From contig WELB01000295.1 in NCBI GenBank assembly GCA_009602725.1, forward strand, positions 90,831 through 130,300: a stretch of 39,470 nt of DNA. The letters run 5' to 3'. The notes under the pieces were generated by a model. The model was not told the DNA's origin. It saw only the letters and a program-made list of their open reading frames with translations, and did not search any database. Shown piece after piece: positions 1-23,345 of this stretch. Numbering within the stretch: position 1 is the first letter of the stretch; every line of letters begins with the position of its first letter. The DNA comes from Spirogloea muscicola. Its lineage: Eukaryota > Streptophyta > Zygnematophyceae > Spirogloeales > Spirogloeaceae. A program made the position numbers and the translations under genes.

Positions 1-134
1 ATTAGCGACCTCTATGTGCTGACTCGTGGTTACTGAGCGGGTCAGCTGAGCAGCAGGTGACGTACATTTGTCCAATGTGCTTGCCTTTGTACTTGGCCAC
101 ACATGGCCTCCCCATCTCTTAATATACACGCATT
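1..134 (+). mobile_element. LINE-A 3' end, 5'-truncated copy
   Basis: The copy encodes only the last residues of the LINE ORF (DLYVLTRGY then TGA) followed by about 100 bases of 3' UTR ending near TATACACGCATT. The same sequence follows the full C-terminal ORF at 16243-16371, which identifies it. The left side is cut by the window edge. Confidence 0.85.
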
Positions 135-146
135 TTCTTTTGGCAT

Positions 147-290
147 TCGAGCGTCAGCTAGCGACCTCTATGTGCTGACTCGTGGTTACTGAGCGGGTCA
201 GCTTAGCAGCAGGTGACGTACATTTGTCCAATGTGCTTGCCTTTGTACTTGGCCACACATGGCCTCCCCATCTCTTAATATACACGCATT
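147..290 (+). mobile_element. LINE-A 3' end, second tandem copy with target-site duplication
   Basis: This is a near-identical repeat of the first copy, starting slightly further upstream in the ORF (SASDLYVLTRGY-stop) and ending at the same TATACACGCATT. It is flanked by TTTTCTTTTGGCAT at 133-146 and by TTTTTCCTTTTGGCAT at 289-304, which look like a target-site duplication of about 14-16 bases. That fits target-primed insertion of a 5'-truncated copy next to, or into, the tail of an older one. Confidence 0.8.
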
Positions 291-344
291 TTTCCTTTTG
301 GCATAGGGCTCCATTTTATCTAGCCCTCACTTATAACAGGGAAT

Positions 345-577
345 TGCTCGCCCATAGAGAAGAGGGGCTGGCGCCCTTCCCTTAAAGAAGAAAGAAGAAA
401 GGGCTCGCCCATTGAAGAAAGAAGAAATTGAGGATATGGGCTGGAACAGCCAGCCCAACAAAGGAATGAACAAAGTACCAGAAGGGGGCTAGGTGAAGCA
501 CTAAGGAAGACAAGCACAAAAAGAAACAAAGCAGCTACAAATCACTCAGTAACCCCTGCTAAGCAATCGCAGGTCAA
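345..577 (-). mobile_element. LINE-B 3' end
   Basis: Read on the minus strand this gives the ORF end DLRLLSRGY-stop (about 544-577), then the LINE-B 3' UTR: a T-rich stretch, a CTTCACCTAGCCCCC-like block and a GGGCTGG/CCAGCCC stem-loop, ending in TTCTTC-rich sequence. The same order follows the longer LINE-B ORF at 13425-14175. Confidence 0.7.
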
Positions 578-582
578 ACTAA

Positions 583-757
583 TTGACGGAGAATACCCGC
601 TTTTGGGCTGGCAAAGCCAGCCCAAAATGTATGGACAAAACCCAAAGAGCCAAAGAAAGGTGCCAAAAGGTGCCAACAAGAAGCTACACAGGTAGACACG
701 AGATGCCGCAAAGGAAAGCTCAGTACCCACGGGTGAGCAGCAGCAAGTCCGAGTTAC
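583..757 (-). mobile_element. LINE-C-like 3' end
   Basis: The minus strand encodes SDLLLLTRGY-stop at about 718-755, followed by 3' UTR with a perfect GGGCTGGC...GCCAGCCC stem-loop near 605-625. The sequence resembles the minus-strand copy at 11740-12055. Confidence 0.6.
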
Positions 758-788
758 TCGCAGCCACTTTTTCAGCGCTAGTTTTGGC

Positions 789-868
789 CTGAACAATGTG
801 TTGGCTTGAGTTTGCCTCCCCTTCATTGCATGCGCACCATGCACCTTGTCTCTCTCTGGAAGCGCTTA
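789..868 (+). repeat. Dispersed short repeat (module M2)
   Basis: This is one of at least seven copies of an 80-base module. It runs from CCTGAACAATGTNNTGGCTTGA, through a pyrimidine-rich block and TTCATGCGCACC, to GCGCGCCTTCTC and TGGAAGCG. Others lie near 5425, 8505, 12092, 13181, 14275 (minus) and 35290. It often sits at the edge of LINE fragments. Confidence 0.6.
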
Positions 869-880
869 CAGTCTATTGTA

Positions 881-1690
881 GGAGCATCTTCTTCCCTGCT
901 CAAGGCCACGTCTTCAACCGGCAGCAACCACTTCCAGGAGTGGGACTAGCCTCCCCTTCTGCCCGCCTGGTGACGAAACTACAATTATACATTATCCCGC
1001 CTTCCCCACAACCTTGACTTTCTAAGCTATGTGACGCCATCAAGGTGGCGTGAGTAGCTCCGTCATGCACTGTCGATTACAAGCTAACAAGCATGCAGCA
1101 CAATTAGCTCCGGATCAGCCTGCAAGATTGATCAAATTTACAGTCGAGACTCCACAGTGGCAGATTGTCCACCACATTTCTTGCACCACCTAATGGCACG
1201 CCCAGTCTCCTAGAATCGGGTATTCATCTGCTGTCAGCTTGTTCGCTGCAGCAGCAGACTGCTCGCAAGCACATCCATCGTTGCCAGCAGATGTCAGTCT
1301 AGATACTCGTCAAAGTGTGATACAGTTGGAAAAATTTGCAAGTAACACGGATCTCGGGCTTAGAGAAAAGCTACCTTTTCGTCACCGCGGGCCTTCTCTT
1401 TTACGTCAAGAGATTAGGCTACTACAGGAAAGCTATCAACACTCCTGAAGACTTGTGTCAGCTGGAACGACATCAGGCAGGAACTCAGAACGTCCGTGCC
1501 TTACAAGACTAGCTCTCAAGGACCTAGACAAAGCGTTCTGTCAAGGTGGGAAGGATTTGGCACCAGCTTGCAGGCTCTCTCAAGTTGCAACACCCATCTA
1601 CTTCAGGCACAACGCCTGACCAAGTCAGAAGCGATGCTCAGAGAACATCAACCATTGCCGCATCAAAGACGCTGAAGACTCGTTGTCCAA
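881..1690. other. Gene-free region downstream of the alkenal reductase gene
   Basis: No supported coding region, RNA gene or dispersed repeat was recognised here. The proximal part should hold the 3' UTR of the minus-strand oxidoreductase, whose stop codon is at 1693-1691. Open frames in the stretch are short and show no family resemblance. Confidence 0.5.
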
Positions 1691-4427
<2,737 letters not shown>

Positions 4428-4810
4428 CTCGGCTTGTGGCAAATCACCAGCTCCTGAGCAGGTGCCTTCGGTCTTTGTCAGGCCTAATGCAGAGCTCTTG
4501 TCAGTGAGGCGGACCTTATCAGATAGCGAGCTTGCTGCATGTCGATAAAGGTGCTAAGGGCATCGATTATGGCCAGTTTCAGCGTCAGCGTGCTAGTAGC
4601 CAAGCGGCACCAAGCGCGCAGGCGCAGGTGCATGGCCTCTCTGGCTCGCAGCTCGGGCAACCATCTCAGACGCAGCAGCTCGCCATCAGCTGTCACCTGG
4701 CGGGCGCCTGACCACGGCGAGGAGGCCACTCCACCGCTGGCCTGCAAAGACGCCGCCGCCGCGCCTCCGGGCGGAGCTGTTGCTTCCTCGGCGGCGGCGG
4801 CGCAGCTGAC

Positions 4811-4854
<44 letters not shown>

Positions 4855-5285
4855 TGCTGAGCTGTCGCTGAGTCACTTGATGGCCGAGCTGGACAGGCAG
4901 GTCACCATCGGAGTGAATTCTCCTAGTATAAGAACAACAATAAAATTCTTCGGTTACGGATCCGTTGGAAAACCAGCAGTAGGTCCTGCCGTCTCATCAC
5001 GCCGACTCTGAGGTTGGTATGCTGCCTCCAACATATTTTAATGCGGAAATGCCGGATGCATAGTAACAGGCACTTTAACCTCTTAAGAGTCTGTTACGGG
5101 AACTGCCGCGCCACCTGGGAGGCCGTCGTGGCGGGCGGCATGCAGCCGGGCGCCACGTGGACCTCGCATGCGTCAGCTCGCGTCACCTCGTCAGTGACGC
5201 CGGCTCTGCCGTCTTCCCAGTCGTCTGACAGGGAGCGGAGTGCCAGACGATGAACCAGGCCAGGCGTTTTCACCAAATTAGATGT
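4428..5285. other. GC-rich upstream region with (GCG)n microsatellite
   Basis: This stretch lies upstream of the oxidoreductase and should hold its promoter. It contains an almost pure GCG/GGC trinucleotide run at about 4812-4852. The run creates poly-alanine open frames on both strands, which I do not accept as genes. A short frame (MAELDRQVTIGVNS, about 4876-4920) looks protein-like but has an upstream stop and no recognisable domain. From 4930 to 5285 nothing was recognised. Confidence 0.5.
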
Positions 5286-5460
5286 TCTTTTTCTGGATTG
5301 GCCAATCACAGCCATCGCCCTCTACTGGAAGAGTCTTACTGTCACCGAATGGCCAATTCGGCTGGACCAGTCACAGCCATCGCCCTCTATTGGAGGAGTC
5401 TCGCTTTAATTTCGCTTTAATTTCATGCGCACCGCGCGCCTTCTCTCTATTGGAGGGAGT
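5286..5460 (+). repeat. Short dispersed repeats M1 and M2 in tandem
   Basis: Two copies of module M1 (GGCCAATCACAGCCATCGCCC then TCTACTGGAAGAGTCT) lie head to tail, followed by the M2 core TTCATGCGCACCGCGCGCC and a partial third TATTGGAGG end. M1 in reverse complement resembles the hairpin element AAGTGGCACTCCCAATGGGG...GGGCTGTGAAAAGCCAGCCC found elsewhere in the window. Confidence 0.6.
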
Positions 5461-5778
5461 CTCTTCTTTCACCAGGCGAATCTGATCACTAACTACTAAA
5501 GGAGATGCGGCGCGGTTTGACCACGGGATGCGCGCGGCCGGGCCGCTGACCGCGCGCCGCGCCTCGCCGGGGCGCGCTCCGGGCGCGGGGCGGCCGCCTC
5601 GCCTCGGTCCGCGCCCGGGGGGGTTTTCCGCGGCGGGCCGCGTCCGGGGAGGGTGAGTCACCCCGGTCCGGGGGTGGGTGGGGGGAACTTTCCGGATGCC
5701 TCTCGCGGCCCCTCCCCCCCCCCCCACCCGGGGGACGCGGTTCGCCGGCCGGCTGTCGGTGTGGCCCTCCCGCCCGCC

Positions 5779-6066
5779 TCCGAGCGAGCTGCCCTCCTCG
5801 AAGCGGCTGCGGTGTTCTTCTGGGACGAGGCCGCCATGCAGAACCGTGCGGTTGTGGAGGCCGTGGATGCGATGCCGCGTGTGGTGCGTCGAGATGGAAC
5901 GCGACCGTTTGGTGGAGCGGGGATGGTGCTTCTCGGGGATTTCCGATGGATTGGGCCGGTCGTACGGGGCGCTGGGAAGACTGCTACGGTGGATGCCGGC
6001 CTGAAGAGTTCATACCTCCGGCGAATGACACACGAGATGGTGCTCTTGCAGCCTGTTCGGACTGCC
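5779..6066 (+). pseudogene. PIF1-like helicase fragment, Helitron type
   Basis: An open frame carries about 95 residues of a PIF1-family helicase: S-E-R-A-A-L-L leading into WDEAAMQNR (Walker B region), PFGGAGMVLLGDFR and PVV, then a degenerate LKSSYL...MVLLQPVRTA segment. This order is typical of the PIF1-like helicase of eukaryotic Helitrons and of fungal/algal PIF1 paralogues. The normally conserved glutamine after GDFR is tryptophan here. The Walker A motif upstream and all later helicase motifs are missing, and the frame runs straight into telomere-like repeats. It is a relic. The Helitron assignment is inference, since no Rep domain or Helitron terminus was found. Confidence 0.7.
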
Positions 6067-6086
6067 GGCGATATGGAGTGGGCCAT

Positions 6087-6130
6087 GTTTGGGGTTTGGG
6101 GTTTAGGGTTTTTAGGGTTTGGGGTTTTTA
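6087..6130 (+). repeat. Interstitial telomere-like repeat block 1
   Basis: This is a run of GTTTGGG, GTTTAGGG and GGTTTTTAGGG variants of the plant-type TTTAGGG repeat. It is followed by TTTTTAGCGTTCTCTCTGCGACCG, a flank nearly identical to the one after block 2 at 6467-6509. Confidence 0.85.
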
Positions 6131-6252
6131 GCGTTCTCTCTGCGACCGAATGAGGCCTGCTGATATTCAAGAATGGGCTGTAAACAACGTCAGAACGGGT
6201 GGAGGATGGACCACTCAGTAGCTACGAGTGAGGGGCCTCAATTTCGACAGAC

Positions 6253-6313: not shown

Positions 6314-6466
6314 ATCTATATCAAGGGAATGATAGCTGGAGGGGGTACTGAGGAGGCGAAGGACGGGCGCGCGATATTAGAGAAAGCGCATCTCTGAATA
6401 ATGGCGCGCGACGCTGATGAAGGAGCAATATGGAATTCAGGAGCGCGACGGCGGCAAAGCCGGAAT
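6314..6466 (+). repeat. Repeat X, copy 1
   Basis: About 150 bases are shared, at high identity by eye, with 19148-19303. They run from CTATATCA and TGATAGCTGGAGGG through GGACGGGCGCGCGATATTAG and GATGAAGGAGCAA to AAGCCGGAATCTAG. Copy 2 lies inside a LINE, so this is a mobile unit. No coding frame is recognisable. Confidence 0.75.
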
Positions 6467-6509
6467 CTAGGGTTTAGGGTTTAGGGTTTTGAGGGTTTGG
6501 GGTTTTTAG
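6467..6509 (+). repeat. Interstitial telomere-like repeat block 2
   Basis: Three near-perfect TTTAGGG units and degenerate variants lie directly after repeat X and before TTTTTAGCGTGCTCTCCGCGACCG. The shared right flank with block 1 shows that the telomere-like tract is part of a duplicated unit, not two independent additions. Confidence 0.85.
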
Positions 6510-7600
6510 CGTGCTCTCCGCGACCGCGCGCTGGGAGCATCGCGCACCGTCCCACTAGTCAAGTAAAAAGAGAGAAGACGCTTTCCAGTAGAGGGCGATG
6601 GCTGTGAGTGGCCAGCTCACAAAATAGGATGAACGAAGTTCGAAGGGGCCAGAGAAAGAGGAAGCGCTGAAGTACACAGATGATCACTTGCATGCGCCCT
6701 TGTGCCCCGCCATCCGGCCCGTTCGGCCGTGTTCTAGCTGCCGCCCTGGCTGTCGTCAAAGGGGACTGCTTTCTGCGCTTCCTCTTTCTGGCTCCTCACT
6801 AGATGTCACTAAGCAATTCATCCTACCAGGCAAACTTTGAGGAAGCGCTTTTGGCCCCTTCGCATGTGGCTTCTGGCTACATGGGCTGACCTTGAACCTT
6901 TGTGATGCAGAGAAAATTACTTCATTCTCAATAGCACGTCAAGTCTGGACTTGGATGATGGACTTTGAAGCAAAGCTGCGGATGCAGGCCATCCCGAGTT
7001 TCCAGGTACACATATTAGCCCTCAAGCAACATGGTAGTGACAATATACTGTCGGTTCGCAGACATGCAAATTCGAGATATGCATGCATACGCGGGGATAG
7101 ATAAGGTCCGGTGTTGATTTCACACGACTTCTTCAAGTGGATGAATCCATTTTAAATCTTTCCGTTTAACTCCTGGCCATCTTGGCCCAACACCAACTCA
7201 AGACGAGAGGGAGGCATCAATGGCCTACTAGTTGTGTGCTCGTTCAGAAATGGAAATCGTCCTCCTCATAGGAGGAAGGCATTTCAAGCATGATACAAAA
7301 TTAAAGAGCAGAATTCACTCACCCGTCCACCCGTCTTAATCTCCAGCACCAACTTCTTCAGCACCAACTTTTTGCCACTGCTGTACCATCTTGATTCCGG
7401 GGATGCGTTGATCGGCTGGGTCGTGAGAGCAATTGGTGCATCGGCCGGTCAATTACCTCTACTCAGCAAAGGCACGTTGGACTTTGAATACTCACAGGAC
7501 GCCATTCAAGAGTAGGCGCTTCCAAAATGCCGCCAATGGAGAAAGTAGAAGCTCTTCATCGAATCACTGCCATCCATTGGAAGCGGCTTTCCTTCTCCAC
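6510..7600. other. Intergenic, repeat-bearing, no gene recognised
   Basis: A minus-strand M1 module lies at about 6575-6620 (CCAGTAGAGGGCGATGGC). The rest has short open frames without family resemblance. A sparse AT-richer stretch at 6890-7340 could be old single-copy sequence. Confidence 0.45.
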
Positions 7601-7603
7601 TAG

Positions 7604-7790
7604 AAGAAGTGGCCCTCCCAGTGGGGGCAAGGGCTGTGATAAGCCAGCCCGAAACAGAGTTGACAAGGTTTGAAGGGGCCAAACTACGAAGGGCCTAAAG
7701 CGCTATCTCAGAACGGGTGTAGGAGGAACTACTCAATCACTACGAGTGAGGAGCCTTACATCCGACAGACTAGCTGGCGAAAAGTAAGAT
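7604..7790 (+). repeat. SINE-like hairpin repeat, long variant
   Basis: The element starts GAAGAAGTGGCCCTCCCAGTGGGGGCAAGGGCTGTGATAAGCCAGCCC and continues through TTGACAAGGTTTGAAGGGGCC to CAGAACGGGTGTAGGA and CTACGAGTGAGGAGCC. The last two blocks also occur at 6190-6255. The GGGCTG...CAGCCC segment can form a stem-loop. Confidence 0.55.
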
Positions 7791-7824
7791 CCCTGACGAA
7801 AGCCAGAGGCTGCAGCGAGAGGAA

Positions 7825-8115
7825 GTGCTCGCCCATAGAGGATAGGGGCTGGGAAAGGCCAGCCTAAGAAAACATTGGACAAAATTCGAATGGGCCAGGG
7901 GAAGCACTAAGAAAAACAAGCACAAAGAAGAAACTATGCAGCTACGAAGCACTCAGTAACCCCTGCTAAGCAGCCTCAGGTCAGAGAAGCTTGGCTCCTG
8001 GAAGCGGGTCCCCTGGCCAGAGCCAGAGGCAGAGAAATAAGAGAAAGGGCTTGCCTATTGAGGATAGGGGCTGCGCAAGCACGGCCAGCACGCAGGTGCA
8101 AGGCGAGCGCCATGG
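7825..8115 (-). mobile_element. LINE-B 3' end, disrupted
   Basis: The minus strand encodes the LINE-B C-terminus: fragments matching RMRLAASLQRS and LHLRAGRA around 8060-8110, then GTRFQEPSFS-like residues and SDLRLLSRGY-stop at about 7952-7990. The 3' UTR and its GGGCTGG...CCAGCC stem-loop follow down to about 7825. About 45 bases of foreign sequence (around 8032-8080) split the ORF remnant. Confidence 0.7.
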
Positions 8116-8189
8116 ACCGCTGCAGGGTATTTTTCATTCCCTTATCCAATTTCGAGTTGCACCACGAGCTCCTTCCGAGCTCCTTCCGA

Positions 8190-8580: not shown

Positions 8581-8815
8581 CGGTACGAGTTAGTCACTTA
8601 GGGCCAGTTCACACTTGGTCGGCTGGTCGAACATTGGTCTCGACTTGGCCTCGACTTGACAAGATTTGACTCCGGATGTCCATACAAAATACGACACGTG
8701 TCCTTCAGCCGCGACCGACCGACCAAGTGAGAATATGGCCCTTAAGCTTCGTAACCTCCACTTAGAGCCTGTCCAGCGCTCGCCCCGGCCCCCGTCTTCT
8801 CGCCGCTCTGCCGCC

Positions 8816-10839
8816 ATGGACGGCCTGCCGGAAGAGTGCCTGGCGGCGCTCCTCGCCCGCGCCGCCGCGCCGCCCGCCCACGCCCCGCTCGGCGCCTCCA
8901 GCTGGCTCCCGCTCGCGCGCGTCTGCCGTCGCTGGCGTCGCCTGGTCCAGGCCTCCGTCACCGAGCTCGCGCTGCGCCAGCGCAGGCAGCTCGTGGAGCC
9001 GCAGGCGCCGTCGGTGCTCAGGAAGCGGGAGCTCGCCCCGGCGCTGGCCACAGCCTTCCCGAGCCTCGCGCGGCTACGCCTCACCGTCCACTACTCCGCG
9101 AGCGGAAGTCGGGGTCCATTTCTCCCCGATGTCCGCTTGCTGATGGCTGCCACTGCACTCTCAGACCTGTGGGTGACCCTGCGGTCCAAGTGCCCACACT
9201 ACGATCAAGTTCACGTACCGCCAGAGCGGCTGATTGACGGTCTAAGTGCTCTCATTGCCCATGCACGAATTCTGCGGGGGCTGGTACTCCAGCGCCCCCC
9301 GGCCGTTCTGGTCCCCCTCATTGCCCAGCTCACGGTCCTCGAAAGCCTCTCCATAGCTAAGTGCGACTTCTCTGGTAAGCTGCTACTCCATTCTGTAGTA
9401 CGTGCTCTGACTTAGATGCTTGATATAGATGGTCGATACCCTGTCGATGCAGTGCAAATCGGCCTTCCCTTCTTTTTAAACGATGGGAGTTTGACGGGCT
9501 AGTGTGATTGTTAACGCCCTCTGCAGACACGGACATCCAAAGTATCGTTGTCTCGTGCAAGCGTCTCACGGAGCTAGAGCTTGGCAGCTCCAAGCGACCC
9601 TCTATTTCTCTCACAGATGCAGGAATTCTATACATTGCCAACAATTTGCCGCAGCTACGATCGCTCCTCCTGACTGGCTATGAAGACATTACGGACGCCG
9701 GGATCATTGCGCTAGCCTCCGCTTGCACGCTGCTGCAGCAGGTCCGCTTTCAAGCCTGTCCAAGGCTGTCGAAAGTCTCCTTTGAGGCGCTAATGTCATC
9801 ATGCTACTCGCTGACGCGGTTTCTCAGCCTCACGCCCCGGATTTGCCACGGGCTGCCGCCGGAGTTAGATACAGCATTCTCGAGGTTGCAGGTCGTAGAG
9901 ATACGCATCCCAGCAGATAATGACAACTTTGATGCTATCAAGGACCTGGCTGCCTCTTGCCGGCAGCTGCGAGAACTTCACATTCTTGGCTCAGGTGGTG
10001 CCCTCGATCCGTGGCTGGTCGCTTGCAACGAGCTTCCATCCCTTTTGGAGCTGAGATTGGTTTGGTGGACGGTGACAGCTTTGCCTTTGGGTGCCTTCTT
10101 GGCTAAGGCCCCGCAGCTAGTGGCTCTAAGTATGAAGAAACTTAACTTCTCTGGGACGGACGTGTACTTCCCTACCAGTCTTCAATCGCTCCGTTCCCTC
10201 GACTTTATTTGTTGGGGCACAGACGAATTTCTGCATCGCTTCTGGACATTTGGCGGCTGGTGCTCTGGCCTGACAGCACTTCGACTTGCTGAAATCTTCC
10301 AGCTGCACCTTAGGAAGGACTGGGCAACAATCCTGGCCGACTGCAGTAACCTTGTTACTCTGGAGCTTGGTTATGTAATCTATGCAAGGCCTACGGATAG
10401 ATGGTGCACAGAGGACAGCTTACTGGCACTTCCATGCCCTACAGAGGTGGCAATGACGTGCGACTCAAGAACCGCAAGTGCCTTTAGGGAAAACATGTAT
10501 GGAGGTGAGGGAAAGTATCAGAGTATCTCTCGCTTGATGAGCCCATGCACAAGCCTGCAAGTTGTGCGCATATGCTGTTGCTGGCGTTTCCCCGACGAGA
10601 GTGTTTACATCCAGATCATTGCCGACCTCCTAGCCACTTGCAGCCAACTAGCATATGTGCACGTGGCCGGCCTCTCTTATCCAAAGGTCAAACGGCTGCC
10701 GCAAGATGTTGCAAATCTCACTTTGTATCGTGCAAGAGTAGCTCGTCTGGAGAGGGTGGAAGAGCGATGGGAGGCCGACTTTGGTCTAGCTCATGAGTAC
10801 TTTTTCAAATTTCGCGTTCATCGTGAAACTGCTATTTGA
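8816..10839 (+). CDS. F-box / leucine-rich-repeat protein 1
   Basis: Two exons, 8816-9374 and 9527-10839, encode 623 residues. The start is ATG in a GCCGCCATGG context, conserved in the paralogue at 20338, so I prefer it to in-frame codons further upstream. An N-terminal F-box-like motif begins MDGLPEECLAALLARAA and continues to PLARVCRRWRRLV (about residues 1-45). It is followed by irregular leucine-rich repeats, for example LTELELGSS, LTDAGILYIA, LPQLRSLLLTG and ITDAGIIALASAC in the AMN1/F-box-LRR style. The tail ends RVEERWEADFG and FKFRVHRE. Such proteins usually act as substrate receptors of SCF ubiquitin ligases; the substrate is unknown. The intron (9375-9526) is GT-AG and phase-matched. 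It sits between LINE remnants. Confidence 0.9.
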
Positions 10840-11499: not shown

Positions 11500-11706
11500 C
11501 CTTTGAGGTGCAGCTTGGGCCGCACTAGCATTCCCCAGGCATTAGTTGCAGTACATAGAATGCGGCTCTCGCTTAGTCGGCAGCGCTCGCAAGATCTGGC
11601 AATTCATCAGTGTGCAGGGCGCGCTCTAAGTCAGGCCTCCAGCTTTCGTGGCGGCGATCCAGCTCCCCAAGTTGTCGGATATATTTGTGCTCACCCGTGG
11701 GTACTA
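11500..11706 (+). mobile_element. LINE C-terminal fragment
   Basis: The coding remnant reads RMRLSLSRQRSQDLAIHQ and CAGRALSQASS in one frame. After a frameshift it ends LSDIFVLTRGY-stop at about 11671-11706. The pattern matches the end of LINE-B and LINE-C (RMRL-SLQRS--AIH-RAGRA). Confidence 0.7.
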
Positions 11707-11739
11707 GTGTCACCCTGTTACCTTAGATACCTCAGTATA

Positions 11740-12055
11740 GAAGAAAGTGCTCGCCCATAGAAAAAGGGGGCCAGCAAAGCCAGCCCGGAAAGAATGGACA
11801 ATGTCCGAAAGCCAAAGAAAGAAAAAACACACAGCTAGGCAGCTAGACAAGAAGACACGACGAAAGCACAGGAAGCTCAATACCCACGCGTGAGCAAGAT
11901 CAGGTCAGAGTAGCTCGACGCCGGGAAAGATGCATTCAGACGCGACCCAGAAGCGGCCGCGATAGCGCGACCTGCACGCGAGTGGACGGCATGAGCAAGA
12001 GAGCGCTGGAGGGACACGGAGAGCCGCATCCGAAAGACCTGGGCACCTCAGTATA
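11740..12055 (-). mobile_element. LINE-C 3' end
   Basis: On the minus strand the remnant encodes RMRLSVSLQRSLAHAVHS and RAGRAIAAASGS; then, after a frameshift, SSYSDLILLTRGY-stop at about 11893-11930. A 3' UTR with a GGGCTGGC...GCTGGCCC hairpin near 11765-11790 follows. The frameshift shows that it is dead. Confidence 0.7.
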
Positions 12056-12207: not shown

Positions 12208-12585
12208 GTCGCATTCGTCGCTCCCTAGACATTGTTGGGGTACAACCTGGCGGAGGTCCACAAGCCTTGGTCGATGTAATTGACGGAGGCGTACAGAAGA
12301 AGTGGCACTCCCAATGGGGGCAAGGGCTGTGAAAAGCCAGCCCGAAAAGAATTGACAAAGGTTCGAAGGGGCCAAAAGCGCTTAGCAGCTACGAAGGGGC
12401 CTGAAGACAAGAGTTGAGTATCGACCCACACTGCTGGCCACACAGTGAGGCGTGCAGAGCAGAGAAAGCTGCAGCAGTGCCCTGACTACCCCTGCAGCAA
12501 TCACCTCCTACCGGCCGCAATGACACCTTTGGCTGCATGTCCTCTCGTTCTCATGCCCTACTTGAAGACATCGCATGTAACGTCC
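12208..12585 (+). mobile_element. LINE-A endonuclease-domain fragment, interrupted
   Basis: The left part encodes RSLDIVGVQPGGGPQALVDV. The right part (about 12418-12585) encodes STHTAGHTV, AEQRKLQQ and DYP...LLPAAM, the direct continuation in the intact copy at 15746-16273. Between them lies a SINE-like repeat (12296-12410). The right part is frameshifted and ends in degraded sequence. Confidence 0.75.
12296..12410 (+). mobile_element. SINE-like hairpin element nested in LINE-A
   Basis: About 115 bases run from AAGAAGTGGCACTCCCAATGG through the GGGCTGTGAAAAGCCAGCCC stem-loop and TTGACAAAGGTTCGAAGGGG to GGGGCCTGAAGACAAG. It interrupts the LINE-A frame between codons for EAY and STHIAG. ACAG on the left and ACAAG on the right could be remnants of a target-site duplication. 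Related copies lie near 7604, 14232, 15268, 15466 and 20005. Confidence 0.7.
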
Positions 12586-12849: not shown

Positions 12850-13115
12850 TGGGATTGCTTGTCCAGCCCCTATCCTCAACGGGCGAGCCCTTGTCCAATT
12901 TTGGGCTGGCCTTTCACAGCCACCAGTCAATGTGGAAGCGCTGTTTCTCGGTGGGTCCACATACGGCCCAGGTGGTCCTCGCTGTGTTCTCACCTGGTCC
13001 CAGGTCCTCACGGCCCTGAGGGCATCTCATGGCTGCAGAAGCTCTGTCTTTGTTCTGTTCTTCTGGGCTGGCCTCTCCCAGCCACTGCCCTCTCCTGTTT
13101 TGTGCTCACCCGTGG
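12850..13115 (+). mobile_element. Mosaic of LINE 3' UTR modules and ORF tail
   Basis: GTCCAGCCCCTATCCTCAACGG (LINE-B 3' UTR), two GGGCTGGC...CACAGCC M1-like modules and a CFVLTRGY-stop tail at about 13086-13110 are joined in one stretch. The order is scrambled relative to intact copies. Confidence 0.5.
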
Positions 13116-13180
13116 GTATTGATGTCACCTTAGGCACCTTACTTTAGGTGTATTTAGCCTTGTTTAGTCTGCAGTAGCCT

Positions 13181-13265: not shown

Positions 13266-13424
13266 CTTTCTGCCTTCTTTCTTTCTGCGCTTGGCAGCAT
13301 ACACTTATCGTTTGATTCTCGTGCTGCCCGCCCCTCACGAGGCGCGGTCCGTCCCTCACGGGCCGGGCTTTAACCTGGGGAGCTGGCCGCTCATGTTCAG
13401 CGCTGTTCCCACGGCGGAGAGCGG

Positions 13425-14175
13425 ACAGCGGCGCAGAGCGGACAGCGGCCCACGACCGCCTCCGGGATGCGATGCATGGCATCCTGGTGGAGGCTGGCTT
13501 CTCGGTGGCAGCGGAGAACTCCGCCATCATGCCGCTCCAGCAAAGAGCCGACGGTCTCCACGCTCGTCGCGTAGACCTTGTGGCCACCCACAAGCCGGCG
13601 GGCCACGTCCTATCCTGGACGTGGTGACCACTGACGCATACAACCGCTCACACCCAGCCCAATGAGCCACCAAGGCTGGGTACGCGGTCGCCTGCGCCGC
13701 TCGGGCCAAGGAGCTCAAGTATGCTGATCGTCCGCGGGAAGACGAGTCTTCCCGCTGGCTATCGACACGCATGGGGCGTTGGACGCTCGGTGGCTTGAGC
13801 TGCTCAACCAGCTCGCCCGCCACGCCATTGTCCGCCGCTTCCAAGGGGAGCCGGTGGACTTTCCTGCAGCCGGGTCGCTAGCGCAGGTGTACCGTATGCG
13901 CTTGGCCGCCTCGCTGCAGAGGTCTATAGCCCGCGCGCTGCACCTGCGTGCCGGCAGAGCCCTCGCTGCTGCCTCTGGCTCTGGCCAGGGGACCCGCTTC
14001 CAGGAGCCCAGCTTCTCTGGCCTGAGGCTGCTTAGCAGGGGTTACTGAGTGCTTCGTAGCTGCTTTGTTTCTTCTTGTGCTAGTATTTCTTAGCGCTTCC
14101 CCTGGCCCCCTTCTCGTACTTTGTTCATTCTTTTTTGGGCTGGCATTTCCAGCCCCTATTCTCAATGGGCGAGCC
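13425..14175 (+). mobile_element. LINE-B endonuclease-like C-terminus and 3' UTR
   Basis: Frameshifted coding sequence reads LRDAMHGILVEAGFSVAA, RRVDLVATHKPAG, ILDVVTTDAYNRS, then a stop, then ATKAGYAVACAARAKELKY. It ends in an open 89-codon frame (13779-14048) with RMRLAASLQRS, LHLRAGRALAAASGS and FSGLRLLSRGY-stop. The spaced R-x-D-L-V, D-V-V and K-x-x-K-Y residues fit the restriction-like endonuclease seen in R2/NeSL/Dualen-type LINEs. The 3' UTR follows to about 14175 with its GGGCTGG...CCAGCCCC stem-loop. Frameshifts and a stop show that it is inactive. Confidence 0.75.
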
Positions 14176-14231
14176 CATTCTTCTTCAATGCTTTTCTGGC
14201 CCCTTCGAACTTTGTAGGAGACAGCTCGTTC

Positions 14232-14560
14232 AAAGTAAGAAGTGGCTCTCCCAATGGGGGCAAGGGCTGTGAAAGAGAGAAGGCGCGCGGTGCGCATGAA
14301 ATTGAAAGGGAGGCCAATTCTAGCCTTACCAAATGTCCTGTTAACTGGGTAATGAGCTGGCTAGGGGGGACACTAATATCCCCGAGTGAGCACATGCATA
14401 TCTGACAAGCTATACTGAGGAGCCAAAAGGAGATGGAGAAGGAGAAGGGCTGTGAGAGACCAGCCCGAAAAGAGTTGACAAAGGCTCGAAGGGGCCAAAA
14501 GACGGAGTGGCCTAAAACGCCATGTCTGAACGGCTGTAGGAAAAGTAAGGCCATGGCTGT
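14232..14560 (+). repeat. Cluster of SINE-like hairpin and M2 modules
   Basis: An AAGTGGCTCTCCCAATGGGG start at 14239 fuses at 14272 to a minus-strand M2 copy (GAGAAGGCGCGCGGTGCGCA). A second hairpin element lies at 14445-14540 (GGGCTGTGAGAGACCAGCCC and TTGACAAAGGCTCGAAGGGG), followed by a partial third at 14548-14600. Confidence 0.55.
14373..14402 (-). mobile_element. LINE ORF tail
   Basis: On the minus strand this encodes SDMHVLTRGY followed by a stop codon, flanked by unrelated modules. It is only about 30 bases of recognisable ORF. Confidence 0.5.
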
Positions 14561-15267: not shown

Positions 15268-15610
15268 ACTCCCGATGGGCAATGGGGGCAAGGGCTGCAA
15301 AACTCTGACCTGCGACTGCTTAGCAGGGGTTACTGAGTGATTAGTAGCTGCTTTGTTTCTTCTTGTGTGCTTGTCTTTCTTAGTGCTTCACCTAAGTGCA
15401 AAAAGCCAGCCCAAAAAAGAATTGACAAAGGTTCGAAGGGGCCGAAAAAGCATTGAGCAGCTACAAAGAAGTGGTACTCCCAATGGGGGCAAGGGCTGCG
15501 AAAAGCCAGCCCAAAAGAATTGACAAAGGTTCGAAGGGGCCTAAGAGCGTTGAGCGTTGAGCTACAAAGGGCACTTCTCTGCGGCTACAAAGGGGTCTGA
15601 AGATGCTATG
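15268..15610 (+). repeat. SINE-like elements flanking a LINE-B tail
   Basis: A truncated hairpin element at 15268-15300 joins a LINE-B tail at 15303-15395 (SDLRLLSRGY-equivalent reading, stop, and TTCTTCTTGTGTG UTR). Two further hairpin elements follow at 15398-15460 and 15466-15600 (CCCAATGGGGGCAAGGGCTG and GAATTGACAAAGGTTCGAAG). Confidence 0.6.
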
Positions 15611-15714
15611 GTCCAGCAAGCGCGTCGAAGGTGTGATTTACCTTGACGAGCCGTGGTAATCGGCTAGCTAGGCCGTAGTGGAAATGGTAGAACAATGGTA
15701 GGAGTGCGTCTCGG

Positions 15715-16371
15715 GTCACACTAAACCCACCGCGCCATCGTTGAAGTGAGCAATGTAATGCCCATCACCACGGATTCCCAGGGAGGCCATCACCGTCGCA
15801 CCCTGGACATTGTGGGTGTACAACCTGCCGGAGGCCCACGAGCTTTGGTTGATGTGGTGGTGACTGAGGCATACAAGAGTTCCGCTTCCACACACATTGC
15901 TGGCCACGCAGTGGGAGGTGCTGAGCAGAAAAAGCTCCGACACTACTCAGACTACCCCCGCAGTGACCACCTCCTCCCGGCCGCAATCGACACTTTCGGC
16001 TGCTTGGGTCCTCGCTTCCATACCCTACTCGAGAACATAGCGAGTCTGGGATATGCACGACGCGAGGATATGCTCCCAGCCCAGATGGGTATGCCGGCAG
16101 CCTATCTGTCATTTCTGCGACGTCGAGTGTCAACCTGTCTGCAACGAGCTCAGGCGTATGCTCTGCATCAGAAAGCTGGTCGAGCCTTAGCTGCTGGCAC
16201 AAGAGCTAGTCAATTGCCGTCGGGTATTCGAGCGTCAGCTAGCGACCTCTATGTGCTGACTCGTGGTTACTGAGCGGGTCAGCTTAGCAGCAGGTGACGT
16301 ACATTTGTCCAATGTGCTTGCCTTTGTACTTGGCCACACATGGCCTCCCCATCTCTTAATATACACGCATT
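15715..16371 (+). mobile_element. LINE-A endonuclease domain, C-terminus and 3' UTR (best copy)
   Basis: An open frame to 16273 encodes the C-terminal half of the post-RT region without stops: VEVSNVMPITTDSQG, RTLDIVGVQPAGGP, ALVDVVVTEAY, AEQKKLRHYSDYP, FGCLGPRF, YLSFLRRRVSTCLQRAQAY and SDLYVLTRGY-stop. The D...D/E...K spacing around LDIVG / VDVVVTEAY / KKLRHY fits a PD-(D/E)XK-type restriction-like endonuclease of RLE LINEs. In green algae such domains are known from Dualen/RandI elements; that assignment is inference. The RT domain is absent, so this is a 5'-truncated copy. The 3' UTR (16274-16371) is nearly identical to the copies at 1-134 and 147-290. Confidence 0.8.
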
Positions 16372-16504
16372 CGGCCTTGAGGCCTGGGGGGTCAGATGAG
16401 CTACATAGCGCACCCCATTCAACAATGTATTTCTCCTGACCAAGCATAAGGGTGTGGAGGACCGGAGCCGACACAAGCCTTTCACGGCTCTGCCTCTCCC
16501 TCTG

Positions 16505-17131: not shown

Positions 17132-17773
17132 GCTCGAAACCCGTTGGCCGTACCACCAAAAACACTTCAATCAAAACGATGCCCTCTTCTGGTACCGTCC
17201 AGGGTATGACACCATTATAGAAGGTTCCTATGGCCTCCACATCCTCATGGCCTGCATTCGATACGAGAAGTGGCGTCTTCGCGCGGCAGGCGTGTGTGCT
17301 GACCAGGCGTCTTCTGCACGCATGTGAGCGACCAAGGGGAAACACAGCCTGGAAGCCTTAATCAAGTCAAAATTCCGATCCACCTCCATCTCCTCCAGAG
17401 CCACATTGGACAGCCCTGCAGAAGGTATCGGCCGGATGAGTCGTCCAGAACCACCCAGATCAGCACGACTCATCCGGCCGATAATTTCTGCAGGGCTGTC
17501 CAATGTGGCTCTGGAGGAGATGGAGGTGGATCGAAATTTTGACTTGATTAAGGCTTCCAGGCTGTGTTTCCCCTTGGTCGCTCACATGCGTGCAGAAGAC
17601 GCCTGGTCAGCACACACGTTTGCCGCGAAGACGCCACTTCTCGCATCGAATGCAGGCCATGAGGATGTGGAGGCCATAGGAACCTTCTATAACGGTGTCA
17701 TACCCTGGACGGCACCAGAAGAGGGCATCGTTTTGATTGAAGTGTTTGGTGGTACGGCCAACGGGTTTCGAGC
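17132..17773. repeat. Long near-perfect palindrome
   Basis: The left arm 17132-17444 and right arm 17465-17773 are inverted copies, each about 310 bases, with only a few mismatches and small indels (for example AAAAAC versus AAAC near the outer end). The spacer is 20 bases. A transcript from either side would fold into a long double-stranded hairpin. Confidence 0.93.
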
Positions 17774-17792
17774 GGCAATAATTTGCAACTAA
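17406..17792 (+). pseudogene. Protein fragment duplicated head-to-head in the palindrome
   Basis: The right arm holds an open frame of about 100 meaningful residues: ISAGLSNVALEEMEVDRNFD, LIKASRLCFPLVAHMRAEDAW, AAKTPLLASNAGHEDVEAIG and EEGIVLIEVFGGTANGFRAA. The left arm encodes the same protein on the minus strand (17503-17228), frameshifted. The closing VLIEVFGGTANGF resembles motif I of C5-cytosine methyltransferase domains, which some algal retroelements carry; this is a weak, pattern-level similarity. No start or stop is conserved between the arms, so it is treated as a broken fragment. Confidence 0.45.
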
Positions 17793-18110
17793 ACCGCATC
17801 ATTTCCTGAGTAAGTCAGAAGGATCTTGCGAATCAGATCTTACGTGTTGTCGCAGGAAAGGGGTGTTTTAGACATCAAATTCACCAGCTGTGCTCTGACT
17901 CTCAGATAAATGCGACCGCCATTCCTTATGTGCTGTTTTGTATTATTTTCTGCAAAAGTATATCATTGAAGTATCGCCAAGTCTCCTTGTACTCTTGTTG
18001 GTTTGACTCTGTCGAGCAAATGTGGAATGATTTGTCAATTACTTTCGTGCTAATTCAACTTATCGACGTCATATGGCAGCCGATATCATCTGGCACGACA
18101 ACTACACGGA
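17793..18110. other. AT-richer stretch, no gene recognised
   Basis: This region is noticeably richer in A and T than its surroundings. Open frames are short and unlike any family I know. Confidence 0.4.
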
Positions 18111-18111
18111 T

Positions 18112-18170
18112 GGGAGCTCCAGTAACCCGAGTCAGCAGCCGCAAGTCGGAATTGCTTGCAGCTGGAAGAG
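18112..18170 (-). mobile_element. LINE ORF tail
   Basis: The minus strand reads ASNSDLRLLTR then GTTAC, matching the SDLRLLTRGY signature with a shift just before the stop. A GGGCTGGCCAATCATAGCCAT M1 module follows at 18196-18225. Confidence 0.5.
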
Positions 18171-18249
18171 AGGCACTTTTCCCATTCTGTTTTCTGGGCT
18201 GGCCAATCATAGCCATTAACCTCTACTACGCAACGTGGAGGAAGGCTCC

Positions 18250-19828
18250 TTCCACTTCCAAGCGGATCTGAGGCGCATCCGTGACTCGGCAATCGGCTCT
18301 TTTCCCTCCATTCAACCCGTACTCACGCCATTCTCCGCCCTCGCCCAAGCTTCTGACAGAGGGGCACAATCCAGACTGGTTACGGCAGTGGAAGATGAGC
18401 GCCGCAGAAGGTTGAGGAGGCTGCCAGAGATTCACAACAATCCAAGGAGCCTGGCAAGACTTACTTCCCTCGCCACACCTGGAGCCACAGACTGGATCAC
18501 CTCACACGCCGTGGCCAACGCCTTCAGCTTCAGCTACGAGGCCTTTCGGACGTCGCTTCAACTCTTCCTCGGCCTCCCACCTAAGTGCCTGATTGGGGTG
18601 CGCCAGTGCGAGTGCGGCTTCCGTGCAGAGAGTGCTGAGCTCGCCACTCACATGCTGCGATGCCCCAGTGGACCAGAAGTGGTGGGCATCCACAACCTCC
18701 TCCGTGATGCCCTGGCGGGTTTGATGCGCAACGCCGGGTACCGTGCGGTCGTGGAAGTGAACAACATCATGCCTATCACCACGGATGCCCAGGGACGTCA
18801 TCATCTACGCACACTTGACATTGTGGGCGTGCAACCTGGTGGAGGACCACGGGCCTTGGTCGATGTCGTGGTTACGGAGGCGTATGGAGGTCCAGCATCG
18901 ACACACATCGCTGGCCTCGCAGTGGGCAGTGCAGAACATAGAAAGCTGCAGCACTACTCCGATTACCCCCAATGTGATCAGCTCCTGCCAGCAGCAGTCG
19001 ACGTCTTTGGCTGCTTAGGTCCTCGTTTCCTTACTCCCCTTCACAACATAGCCAATCTAGGCTACAAACGACATGCAAATGTGTTCCCGGCTGAGATGGG
19101 CTTGCCAGCTGCATATCTGTAACGAAGTTACACAAGATGGAACATCTATATCATGGGAGTGATAGCTGGAGGGAGTACTGAGGAGGCGAAGGACGGGCGC
19201 GCGATATTAGAGAAAGCGCATCTCTGGATAATGGCGCGCGACGCTGATGAAGGAGCAACATGGAATTCGGGAGCGCGACGGCGGTGAAGCCGGAATCTAG
19301 ACTTCTAGTGTTAGAACTCTACTAGTATTAGTATTACGCGCGGGTCCCCGCAATCGGCGGCGACTCCAGCGGCGGAGGCGGCGGCCACGGGTGGATCTTC
19401 TGTGAGGGCTTAGCAAGTGGCCGGGCGCCTAATAATCCCATGAGGCCGGGGGCAGGGCCCCGAGAACCTCGATGGTTACTGAAGGAGGAGGGGCGCCCAG
19501 TCGAGGCCCTTCTTCCACCCCCAGACGCTTGTACTCAGCATTGTTTACACTTCAACAGTTGGCTTTATTTTACCCATTGCATACGTTTGGCTCCGACTCC
19601 TTTGCTTCGCGACACCAACGCCTCGTCCTTGGGCTTGACGATCCTCATTCTTTACAATGTCTGTCGTTCTTGCGGCGACGAGTTTCGGCCTGTTTGCAGC
19701 GTACTCAGGCTTATGCTTTGCACCAGAAAGCCGGGCGAGCTCTAGTTGGTGGCAGAAGGGCTTCGTATCTGCCATCTAGTATTCAGGCATCGGTTAGCAA
19801 CCTTTATGTGTTGACCCGTGGTTACTGA
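18250..19828 (+). mobile_element. LINE-A post-RT region with nested insertion
   Basis: This is the longest LINE-A copy. The frame 18235-19122 encodes a post-RT segment (GATDWITSHAVANAFSFSY, FLGLPPKCLIGVRQCECGF), a zinc-knuckle-like C-x-C...H-x-x-x-C followed by GIHN, and the endonuclease-like LDIVGVQPGGGPRALVDVVV / HRKLQHYSDYP. It stops at MGLPAAYL where a 539-base insertion starts. Translation resumes at 19665 with SFLRRRVSACLQRTQAY and ends SNLYVLTRGY-stop at 19828. No RT domain lies upstream, so it is 5'-truncated. Confidence 0.8.
19121..19659 (+). mobile_element. Insertion X (539 bases) within LINE-A
   Basis: The LINE frame breaks after TATCTGT (ending 19120) and resumes after TGTCTGT (ending 19664); TCTGT at 19116-19120 and 19660-19664 is a likely 5-base target duplication. 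The first 180 bases match repeat X at 6314-6466. The rest (GCGCGGGTCCCCGC, GC-rich, then AT-richer) has no recognised coding content. No clear terminal inverted repeats were seen, so the class is unknown. Confidence 0.65.
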
Positions 19829-20330
19829 GCGGGTCAATCTGCTGTAGGGTTATGTAGGTCTTGAGATGTGCTTGCCTTTGTACTTGGCCATTTGGCCTTC
19901 GTTTGTCTCAAATACACGAAATTACCATCTACTGGTAGACTCCTGCTTTCCCAGCCCTCGCTTTGGCGCTTGTCCATTCCTTTGGGCTGGCTTCTCCATG
20001 CCACTGAAGAAGTGGCACTCCCAATGGGGGAAAGGGCTGCGAAAAGCCAGCCCAAAATGAATTGACAAAGGTTTGGAGGGGCCTACAAGCGATTAGCAGC
20101 TACAAAGGGGCCGGAAGATGCCACTGAGAGCAAGCGCGGCCACATTGAACCAAGTGCGGCCAGATTGACTGGTGGCTGGGAGAGGCCAGCCCAAAGAGAG
20201 AGAGAGACCCAAAACCCAAAAGAATGGACACTGCTGTCAGTTTGGAAGACAATTCGTGTATTTCGTGTATTCGTGTAGTTTGGAAGTGCTGTTCCCTGCT
20301 TCTCCGCCGCCATGGAAGCCGACAGGACAC
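19829..20330 (+). repeat. LINE-A 3' UTR followed by SINE-like hairpin element
   Basis: GAGCGGGTCA and GTGCTTGCCTTTGTACTTGG follow the LINE stop, diverged from other LINE-A 3' UTRs. A hairpin element occupies 20005-20118 (CACTCCCAATGGGGGAAAGGG, GCGAAAAGCCAGCCC, GGGGCCTAC). A further GAGAGGCCAGCCC half-module lies at 20172-20190. The final stretch is the upstream region of F-box gene 2. Confidence 0.55.
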
Positions 20331-20337
20331 AGCCGCC

Positions 20338-22389
20338 ATGGACGGCCTGCCGGACGAGGTCCTGGCGGCGGTCCTCGCCCGCGCCGCCGCGCCCCACGCC
20401 AGCGCCCGCGCCGCGCTCGGCGCCTCCGGCTNTGGTGGCCGCCGGCGTCGCCGAGCTCGCGCTGCGCCAGCGCCCGCAGCCAGAGCCGCAGCTCGGTGGG
20501 CGCCCACGGGGGATGCTCGGCCCGGCGCTGGCCGCGGCCTTCCCGCACCTCGTGAAGCTCCGCCTCACCGTCCACCACTCCTTCTGCGACTTACGCCGGC
20601 TGACGGCCGCCACTGCGCTCTCAGACCTGCGGCTGGTCCTCCACTCCTCCCTTCACCCGCCAAACCAGCTCCACAACGTTCTCCGGGACCTCGCCATCCA
20701 CGCACGGATTCTGCGGGGCCTTGTCCTCCATGTTTCCCTGCCCTCCTCTGCATCCCACCCACGGTCACGGTTCCCGCGGGGACGTGTCCTCCAATTCCCC
20801 CGGTCCTTTATTTCTGCGCTGGTTGCTGGCTTCACTGCCCTCGAGAGCCTCTCCGTGCTCGAGGCCGACATAACCGGTGAGCTCGGGAAGCTCGTCCTCC
20901 TCTGAAGTATGCTCCCTTTTCTGGGTCTCCTCCTCACTTGTCCTGGTCCTTGAACCCAAGTCCATGTCCAGCCAGCAGTGGCCCACCTCGCGTCCTTGTT
21001 TGAATAGAATGCCAATCTGACTGGCCGGTTGGGTTGCCATTGCCATCTGCAGATATGGACATCCATACTGTCGTTGTTGCGTGCAAGCGCCTCACGGAGC
21101 TAGAGCTTAGCAGCTGCCGCCAGCCATCCGAACCTCTTACAGATGCGGGATTGCTGGACATTCCCACATATTTGCCACAACTACTATCACTCCGCCTGAC
21201 TGGTTTTGATGCCATCACCGATGCTGGGATCCTGAGGCTAGCCTCTGCGTGCTCGCTGCTGCAGGACATGGGCATAGAAGGGTGTGATGGGCTGTCGCCA
21301 GACTCCTCATGGAGGCTCATATCGCAGTGCCGCTCGCTAACGCGGCTGCTTAGCCATGACCCCTGGAACTGCCACTGGCTGCAACACGCTGTAGACAATC
21401 TTCAAAGGTGGAGTCTTTCAGGACTGAAAGTAGTAGACATTGACCTCTTACCAGAAGGCAACACCAATTCTGCTATCCACGAACTAGCTGCCTCTTGCTC
21501 GCAGTTGCAAGAGCTTCGCATCTTTGGCTTCTTTGAGGATGCACATCTCGATCAATGGCTTCTCGGTTGCCAGGAGCTTCCTTCCCTTACGGTGCTCAGA
21601 TTGGTCGAATGGAGATTGACTGCTGGCAGCCTACTTGGCTTCTTAGCCAGGGCCCCCCGTCTGGCGGCCCTTGGCCTCGAGGACATCGTCTTCATCAATA
21701 CGGACCTGTGCTTCACTACAAGTCTTCCATCCCTCCATTTCCTCGACTGCAACACCTGTTTGGGCACAGGCGATGCTCAGCATCACTTTTGGAGACTCGG
21801 TGACTGGTGCCCTGGCCTGTCAACACTGCGACTTGCCGGAGTTATCGAGCTGCATGAAGACTGGGCAGCTACGCTTATTGCAAGTTGCAGTCAGCTTGTT
21901 AGCCTGGAACTTGGTGCTTCGCTCGTTCTGAGGACAGTCTCCACCACTGACACCTCATTGGCGCTTCCATCCCCTCCAGAGGAAGCAATCAGAAAGATTG
22001 ATGGTGAAAACATGTCCTGCGGGCATATCTGTCACTTAGTGAGGACATTCACAGATCTGAAGATTGTGCGCTTGGGGAAGTGCTGGAATGGTAGCATGGA
22101 TGAATTCTACAAGACCATAGCTGACATCCTGATAACTTGCCGCCAACTAGCATCGTTACATGTGGCTGGTCGCCATGGTGACGATTACGATTTGCTGCCC
22201 CAGATCGTTGAATCCATGTCGCAAATCCGTCTGAAGAGGGTGGAAGAGCAATGGGAGGCAGAGGTTGGTAGAGATAGTGATCATGGCTTTGAAGATTATA
22301 TTCACAAGTTCCGCATCTATCATGAAGTCCCACTTGAGGACGCCCTACCTGTTGCCAAAATTGATGCAATTCATTTTTGTTACTCATAA
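20338..22389 (+). CDS. F-box / leucine-rich-repeat protein 2 (contains a sequence gap)
   Basis: Two exons, 20338-20876 and 21053-22389, share exon structure, intron phase and sequence with F-box gene 1. It starts MDGLPDEVLAAVLARAAAP in a GCCGCCATGG context. At N (20432) the frame shifts and the F-box core (the counterpart of WLPLARVCRRWRR, about 40 bases) is missing. After it the frame continues ELALRQR through LRR segments (LTELELSSC, LTDAGLLDIP, LPQLLSLRLTGFDAITDAGI). The tail RVEEQWEAEVG and HKFRIYHE matches the paralogue. Without the gap the protein would be about 630 residues. I read the defect as missing sequence, not a true frameshift. The likely role is SCF substrate receptor. Confidence 0.85.
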
Positions 22390-22577
22390 GAATTCACTGA
22401 AGCATGACTTGGTCAACGGTGCGCCGGCAGTTTGGAGTCTTCTCGCTCCTTTGCTTGATTTCTTTGGGCTCACAGCCATTGCCTTACATTTGAAATGCTG
22501 TTTCCCTTGCTTGGACAGTCACCTGATCTTGCACGCCGAGCATACGTCACAATCAAACCTTCAAAGCATTGGATGTA

Positions 22578-22919
22578 CAGTCAAAGCTGTCTAAGCTTAT
22601 CCTCCATTAGCTTATATCCTGTATACCGTTATCAAATTCTGGCAAACCGAGTCGGTTTAGTGGCGCAAGCTTATATAATCCTCTATATTTCCATACTTTG
22701 CATATTTTCTCAGAATATAAGCTTACACCTATGGATATCTCTTGATAACACGCATTCTTTATGGACGGACCCTGCGGACGGACCGTGCGGCGGATCGTGC
22801 GACGGCGCGCGACCGTGCGATGGCCGTGCGACGGACCGTGCGACCTGTGTACCGTTATATCCTGTGTATCGTTATACAAACCTCCCCAACCGACCGCATA
22901 AGTTTAGACAGGTTGACTG
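22578..22919. mobile_element. Tc1/mariner-like MITE
   Basis: The 342-base element has inverted ends: CAGTCAAAGCTGTCTAAGC on the left and, reverse-complemented on the right, CAGTCAACCTGTCTAAAC. It is flanked by TA on both sides (22576-22577 and 22920-22921), the target duplication of Tc1/mariner. Subterminal TATATCCTGTATACCGTTAT is repeated directly near the right end with small changes. The centre holds a degenerate CGGACCGTGCGA array (22765-22850). There is no transposase, so it is non-autonomous. Confidence 0.8.
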
Positions 22920-22975
22920 TAGGTGACTGCCACTGTCGCCCTACACTGGTCTTTAACGACTGCTCTATATGTCAG

Positions 22976-23104
22976 AGATAATCATGGCGAGCTACTACAA
23001 AGCTGGTATGCTTACTCGACAAGAACTGCTTCTTTACAGTGGCTGTGGACGTGGCGACAATCCCCAGAGCGGCGGGCCTCTCCTCCTCGTTGGAACAAGG
23101 ATTC
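22976..23104 (+). pseudogene. Possible cytochrome-b5/MAPR-like fragment
   Basis: A short frame reads MLTRQELLLYSGCGRG and SGGPLLLVGTRI, vaguely like the start of a membrane-associated progesterone-receptor/cytochrome b5 domain (T..EL..Y.G...GPLL..V.G). It is cut off by a minus-strand LINE tail. The resemblance is weak and I cannot exclude chance. Confidence 0.15.
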
Positions 23105-23345
23105 AAGTAGCCTCTGGGTGCTCAATAGCCCCTGTTGAGCAGCCGCAGGTCAGAGAAGCTAGCCCCCGGGTATTGGGTCCCCTGTCTGTAACCAGAGGCT
23201 GCAGCCAAGCGCGACCGGCATGCAGTTGCACTACGTGAGCCATCGACAGCTGCAGCGATACTGACAGAACAATCTTCAAGTTCTGTTCACTCCTCTTTCT
23301 GGGCTGGCTAATCACAGCCATCGCCCTCTACTGGAAGAGACATTT
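23105..23345 (-). mobile_element. LINE-B tail and adjacent M1 module
   Basis: The minus strand gives SDLRLLNRGY-stop at about 23128-23160, preceded by residues matching the LINE-B C-terminus (CMPVALGCSLW region, degraded). On the plus strand, GGGCTGGCTAATCACAGCCA and TCGCCCTCTACTGGAAGAG at 23299-23340 is an M1 module. Confidence 0.6.

Follow-up and report, generated by a model that had tools for sequence, protein, structure and literature searches.

Long interspersed nuclear elements (LINEs) of the R2, R4, NeSL/Utopia, HERO and CRE groups carry a restriction-like endonuclease (RLE), and in the sections of the literature consulted their proteins are described as carrying a C, C, H, C array and then, close to the C-terminus, a core with two aspartates and a K-x2-(K/H)-Y. 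The relevant passages of one account (PMC5678591) give the spacing of the CCHC knuckle as C-x2-3-C-x7-8-H-x4-C, place the displaced catalytic lysine in K-x2-K-Y, with the second lysine less conserved, and put a conserved histidine at the first helix. In Chlamydomonas and relatives there is a LINE group, Dualen/RandI, that is described, in the excerpts at hand, as having an RLE plus an apurinic/apyrimidinic endonuclease (APE) and as having 3' tails common to short elements. Zepp belongs to the APE-type L1 group, and its copies are 5'-truncated. Here we analyze a stretch of 39,470 bases (55% GC; the window) from Spirogloea muscicola (assembly GCA_009602725.1, contig WELB01000295.1, positions 90,831 to 130,300 of the forward strand), in which LINE fragments on both strands end in the consensus SDLxxL[T/S]RGY-stop. 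Very probably, this motif is the C-terminus of the protein encoded by the open reading frame (ORF) in a single, diversified lineage of LINEs whose endonuclease region is R2-like, and 5' truncation accounts for its frequency. On our best reading it is an ordinary, conserved protein end in a lineage that appears to be RLE-type, and mostly an ordinary feature. The parts of the RLE LINE literature searched contained no description or counterpart of such an ending.

We scanned all six frames with six motif seeds and obtained 14 strong matches (scores 34–54; the best score in five first-order Markov simulations of the window was 27), eight on the plus and six on the minus strand, and in all 14 the stop codon follows immediately. 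The stop-codon ends lie at 36, 192, 11707, 13122, 14048, 15336, 16273 and 19828 (plus strand) and at 546, 720, 7953, 11877, 14373 and 23122 (minus strand). The original prediction, made from the letters of the window, had listed about fifteen fragments ending in the motif and a stop; we recovered 14 of the 15 listed places, with positions agreeing within 6 bases except at 11893 (motif 11877–11909) and 13110 (stop at 13122). The remaining place, near 18112 on the minus strand, is a relic: it reads SDLRLLTRVT, with a frameshift after SDLRLLTR (18118–18150) and without an in-frame stop. Two extra probable relics were found on the same strand, SDVRLLTRSD-stop (7733–7765) and SKLRPLTRSY-stop (6215–6247). 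Since the scores of the three (28, 27 and 26 for 18112, 7733 and 6215) are within or just over the simulated range, these calls rest on alignment with other copies; a further minus-strand match at 7449 (score 25, SNVPLLSRGN-stop) was left out of the count. Variant endings among the strong copies include LSCFVLTRGY, which lacks the S-D, at 13122, SDLRLLNRGY at 23122, SGLRLLSRGY at 14048, FDLRLLSRGY at 546 and SNLYVLTRGY at 19828. Copies 36 and 192 belong to a tandem duplication of 156 bp and are not independent: the first (4–36, plus strand, Y family) is cut by the window edge, and at the second (142–192) homology to 16223–16389 begins. We sorted the motif-bearing copies into four families, labelled Y, R, L and F for this analysis.

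To judge from its codons, the motif is coding and kept at the protein level. Among four family representatives (six pairs, which are not independent), 29 codon changes were synonymous and 16 non-synonymous. The motif differs at 9–13 of its 30 bases per pair, yet the amino acid is changed in only 2–4 of ten codons, where simulations of random substitution (n = 5000) expect 5.5–7.2 non-synonymous codons; every pair fell lower, with P ranging from <0.0002 to 0.026. Third codon positions taken by themselves show a weaker excess (P 0.02–0.17), and over 71 between-family pairs, near-duplicates included, the counts are 316 synonymous versus 211 non-synonymous changes. Serine is written TCN or AGC, arginine CGN or AGG, glycine with all four of its codons, and the stop is TGA or TAG. 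These swaps of codon class at serine and arginine, together with the synonymous excess, are not what constraint on the RNA would favour. The synonymous excess bears out the functional constraint on a C-terminal protein tail that had been proposed.

The C-terminal order in the LINE frames is a core (LDIV...LVDVVVTEAY...K-L-x-[H/K]-Y), an LQR...ALH..AGRA segment, a variable linker and the motif. The longest unbroken Y-family frame (15725–16273, plus strand) runs from the endonuclease-like core through the LQR segment and linker to SDLYVLTRGY-stop. The LQR segment, 23 residues long and common to the families, lies ~18 codons upstream of the motif, and all seven copies that have it (tblastn, E<1) carry the motif downstream, one of them across a frameshift (F family, SDIFVLTRGY-stop, 11530–11707, plus strand). 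The other longer C-termini are of the Y family (19660–19828, plus strand), the R family (13418–14048, plus strand, with a frameshifted core and an LQR segment; 7953–8128, minus strand, SDLRLLSRGY-stop; 23122–23285, minus strand, in a decayed reading frame) and the L family (11877–12047, minus strand, SDLILLTRGY-stop). We compared segments between Y16241, R14016 and L11877, pooling three non-independent pairs and leaving out the F family because it is frameshifted: identity was 21/30 (70%) in the motif, 43/69 (62%) in the LQR segment and 17/54 (31%) in the linker. By Fisher's test the motif is indistinguishable from the LQR segment (P 0.50) and differs from the linker (P 0.001, pooled), so that it stands out only against the latter. 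The alignments thus present the motif as one of two well conserved C-terminal pieces, and the idea that the last ten residues are constrained more than the rest is not supported. That the families differ widely elsewhere is only partly right: the LQR segment and the endonuclease-like core are shared (37 and 44% identity in two core-only alignments of Y with R). Two interruptions were seen in these frames: a tail-like fragment of ~42 nucleotides (nt) at ~8035–8076 splits the R-family coding sequence of the 7953 copy between LQR segment and linker, and one copy of a 157-bp repeat (6314–6470 and 19144–19300, 95% identical) sits between 19120 and 19660, dividing an apparent single Y-family element.

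The part upstream of the LQR segment apparently resembles the RLE of R2-type LINEs. A plus-strand fragment of 300 residues without a C-terminus (18220–19119) holds a C, C, H, C array (CECG...HMLRC) and the core, ending in KLQHY; an H-x3-C also occurs near 13380. In the PD-(D/E)XK-like core a first aspartate is followed ~15 residues on by a second (LDIVGVQPGGGPRALVDVV in Y-type copies, VDLVGVPLGGGKRLLMDVV at 28061); the proline that precedes the first aspartate is absent, and in the R family both aspartates sit in two frameshifted pieces. The K-x2-(K/H)-Y appears as KLNKY at 28061, KELKY in the R family, and KLRHY and KLQHY in two Y-type copies. The two aspartates, this lysine motif and a conserved histidine are arranged as the description of RLE LINEs has them; the protein here differs in the spacing of the array and in continuing past the core, via the LQR segment and linker, to SDLxxLTRGY. 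Pfam gave nothing above its cut-off for three LINE fragments, and a sequence search of the PDB gave no match with a single query or with profile A2. As neither these nor a confident structure model confirm it, the term 'RLE-type' rests on the motif residues. A PDB match of profile A4 to a repeat protein (whole-sequence E 1.9e-05) was rejected as chance, no displayed stretch having an independent E below 27. Scans of viral and prokaryote contig collections gave no confirmed relative, and the stretches that fitted the search pattern in three of them (4, 18 and 50) were not confirmed by tblastn; given the viral and prokaryotic origin of the contigs, this is weak negative evidence. A more distant endonuclease-like fragment (28061–28321, plus strand) has no C-terminal end in the window.

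Several results weigh against reading the motif as the conserved C-terminus of an RLE-type lineage. The array spacing, C-x1-C-x11-H-x3-C, is unlike that of published RLE LINEs, and the single complete array (18220–19119) comes from decayed copies. No reverse transcriptase was seen in the fragments studied, which are truncated copies in which not every frame was scanned, and no full-length element was seen in the window. Two structure models were uninformative (mean predicted local distance difference test scores of 43.4 and 42.7). Taken pair by pair, the contrast of motif with linker is significant in one case only (Y-L, P 0.005; Y-R, 0.12; R-L, 0.25). Arginine, glycine and tyrosine are present in all 14 strong copies, an agreement that is partly circular because these copies were found by motif similarity, and RGY is lost in all three relics. 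The constraint is derived from four families in one window, and no outside relative was found.

Many copies are 5'-truncated, with the last few hundred bases left, so that the end of the ORF is overrepresented and the motif frequent. Clustered copies are also a feature of Zepp and Zepp-like L1 LINEs in the descriptions consulted; in contrast to these, the fragments here have an RLE-like C-terminus. Excluding the window-edge copy, homology stops less than 90 nt from the stop end in 9 of 16 motif copies, and 24–51 nt before it in eight. The break is sharp in three of the eight (31, 34 and 51 nt), as judged against longer relatives 81–95% identical; these include the R-family short copies FDLRLLSRGY-stop (546–576, minus strand, 31 nt) and SDLRLLSRGY-stop (15303–15336, plus strand, 34 nt). 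The other five rest on diverged relatives or a flanking element; copies with uncertain 5' ends are FVLTRGY-stop (F family, 13099–13122, plus strand), SDMHVLTRGY-stop (F family, 14373–14408, minus strand) and SDLLLLTRGY-stop (L family, 720–765, minus strand). When nine ends and seven longer copies, hand-entered as minimum lengths, were fit to an exponential, the 24–51 nt interval held eight ends where 1.4 of 16 were expected (P 0.0006 when any 28-nt interval is scanned). The clustering is no longer significant (P 0.26) when sharp junctions alone are counted, and against diverged relatives a fast-changing linker would by itself end the homology. A possible concentration of 5' ends shortly before the motif is thus a lead only. 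Some short copies come immediately after another copy's tail and share its orientation (13099–13122, 14373–14408, 7733–7834, and 546–623 after 720), and those at 4–308 are arranged in tandem. Insertion beside tails or template switching could explain such positions.

Downstream of the stop we picked 24 tails by eye and sought a motif stop within 110 nt upstream on the same strand. The R/L-family tail consists of TTTGTCCATTC... and GGGCTGGC...CCAGCCC, often followed by ATGGGCGAGC and CTTCTTC, and lies 83–97 nt after the stop in six copies (relic 7733 included). Its inverted repeat, GGGCTGGC...CCAGCCC, is common to R and L copies and recurs in motif-less ones; the 24 places include 14119–14171 (plus strand), 20019–20071 and 35130–35259 (both minus strand). 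In the R copy ending at 14048 the tail (TTTGTTCATTC...GGGCTGGC...CCAGCCC...AATGGGCGAGC) spans 14119–14190 on the plus strand, its end being approximate, with the hairpin 89 nt after the stop; in motif copy 546 it spans 422–474 (minus strand), with the hairpin 90 nt after the stop, and tails of the same type at 12309–12361 and 20019–20071 (both minus strand) have no motif upstream. In the two Y copies the inverted repeat is of another, shorter kind and lies 56 and 57 nt past the stop; it was kept in the tail alignment despite its poor fit. No such tail was found for F copies. A motif stop was present within the 110 nt for 8 of the 24 tails and absent for 16, one of the latter lying 156 nt after motif copy 19828. 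The position of the tail ~90 nt past the motif stop, together with the 16 motif-less tails, indicates that the 3' end of R and L elements is the tail and that the motif is often lost. The suggestion that the motif is kept as the extreme 3' end by truncation is therefore right about its frequency but not about its place. In the tail hairpin 84% of cells are paired over the 24 tails, against 36–54% when slid; no pair shows change on both sides, and covariation falls below the shuffled level (equalled or exceeded in 489 of 500 shuffles). Tails of stringent-type LINEs, as partially described, likewise have, close to the 3' end, a short sequence prone to form a stem-loop that recurs in several copies; here, by contrast, only R, L and motif-less copies show it clearly, and its stem lacks compensatory change. 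By analogy with these LINEs the tail may be a recognition site. Dualen/RandI, in the accounts at hand, is similar as an RLE-bearing LINE group of green algae whose 3' tails are shared with short elements; it differs in that neither APE nor reverse transcriptase was seen in the truncated copies here, the comparison being one of descriptions.

A different account makes the conserved stretch an RNA signal, a hairpin that spans the end of the coding sequence, the stop and the bases just after it and that is read by the reverse transcriptase or the translation machinery, with the amino acids as a by-product. In its favour, the LTR codons of the Y family form a 10-bp stem with the 10 nt that immediately follow the stop (16255–16283 and 19810–19838, plus strand), and a C-G to U-A change between the distinct copies 16241 and 19796 leaves this stem intact (z-scores -2.2 and -2.3). 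A hand-drawn 6-bp stem over the stop codon also has 73% of cells paired in 15 copies (12 strong and 3 relics), compared with 26–42% when the partner is slid by 1–3 columns. RNAalifold, however, predicts no pair in the same 15 copies, and the drawn stem does not surpass shuffles, which equal or exceed it in 439 of 500 cases for cells paired and in 388 of 500 for covariation; the pairs of this stem largely follow from the fixed leucine, threonine/serine and stop codons. Ten other copies were folded, and apart from 15304 (z-score -2.0) they lie between -1.2 and +1.0; the changes between families are, moreover, mostly synonymous. We regard an RNA signal as improbable, and 3' RNA recognition by the motif, one of the functions first suggested for it, finds no backing in the folding results. 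Conservation could also be only apparent, with short truncated copies from a few recent source elements dominating. Copies 36, 192 and 16273 are indeed nearly identical, and so, around the motif, are 7953 and 14048; the nine homology ends within 90 nt of the stop also fit this account. But the conservation spans four families with the base differences given above, and the linker beside the motif, which the same longer copies retain, shows no such conservation. This account is therefore very unlikely.

We see only a slight chance that the last ten codons, the 3' untranslated region and the tail (~170 nt) move as a separate non-autonomous LINE-derived element, with the motif codons as its start. 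This idea draws on the eight ends at 24–51 nt and on the R-type short copies 546 and 15304, which have bases in common that the long R copies lack and whose starts differ by no more than 3 nt; the loss of significance when sharp junctions alone are counted speaks against it. Contact of the C-terminal peptide with element RNA or target DNA through its arginine and tyrosine, as part of the recognition machinery, is a rather doubtful alternative: the R-G-Y residues common to the strong copies (with the circularity noted) agree with it, as does the non-specific RNA binding that the consulted part of PMC5678591 reports for the C-terminal 180-residue peptide of human L1 ORF2p, an APE LINE, and a packing role fits equally well. 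Under the preferred reading, an ordinary conserved C-terminus, the ten residues would form a small anchored element, for example a strand or hook at the terminus, folded back against the body of the endonuclease or reverse transcriptase. A flexible, poorly conserved linker of ~18 residues would permit this packing, which might assist the folding or orientation of the C-terminal module. The RNA recognition needed for priming would, in the R and L families, depend on the downstream tail, not on the motif. Such a signature would reveal decayed copies of the lineage where the remaining protein is gone, and points to a small C-terminal element for structural work on RLE LINE proteins; the window itself is a dense record of truncation and nesting of these LINEs.

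Other features of the window include two related plus-strand stretches, 8660–10839 and 20149–22389; in the first, leucine-rich sequence comes after an F-box-like match that falls just short of the Pfam cut-off (E 4.6e-05). An open frame at 28532–29557 (plus strand) matches a RING zinc finger (PF17123, E 1.1e-07).

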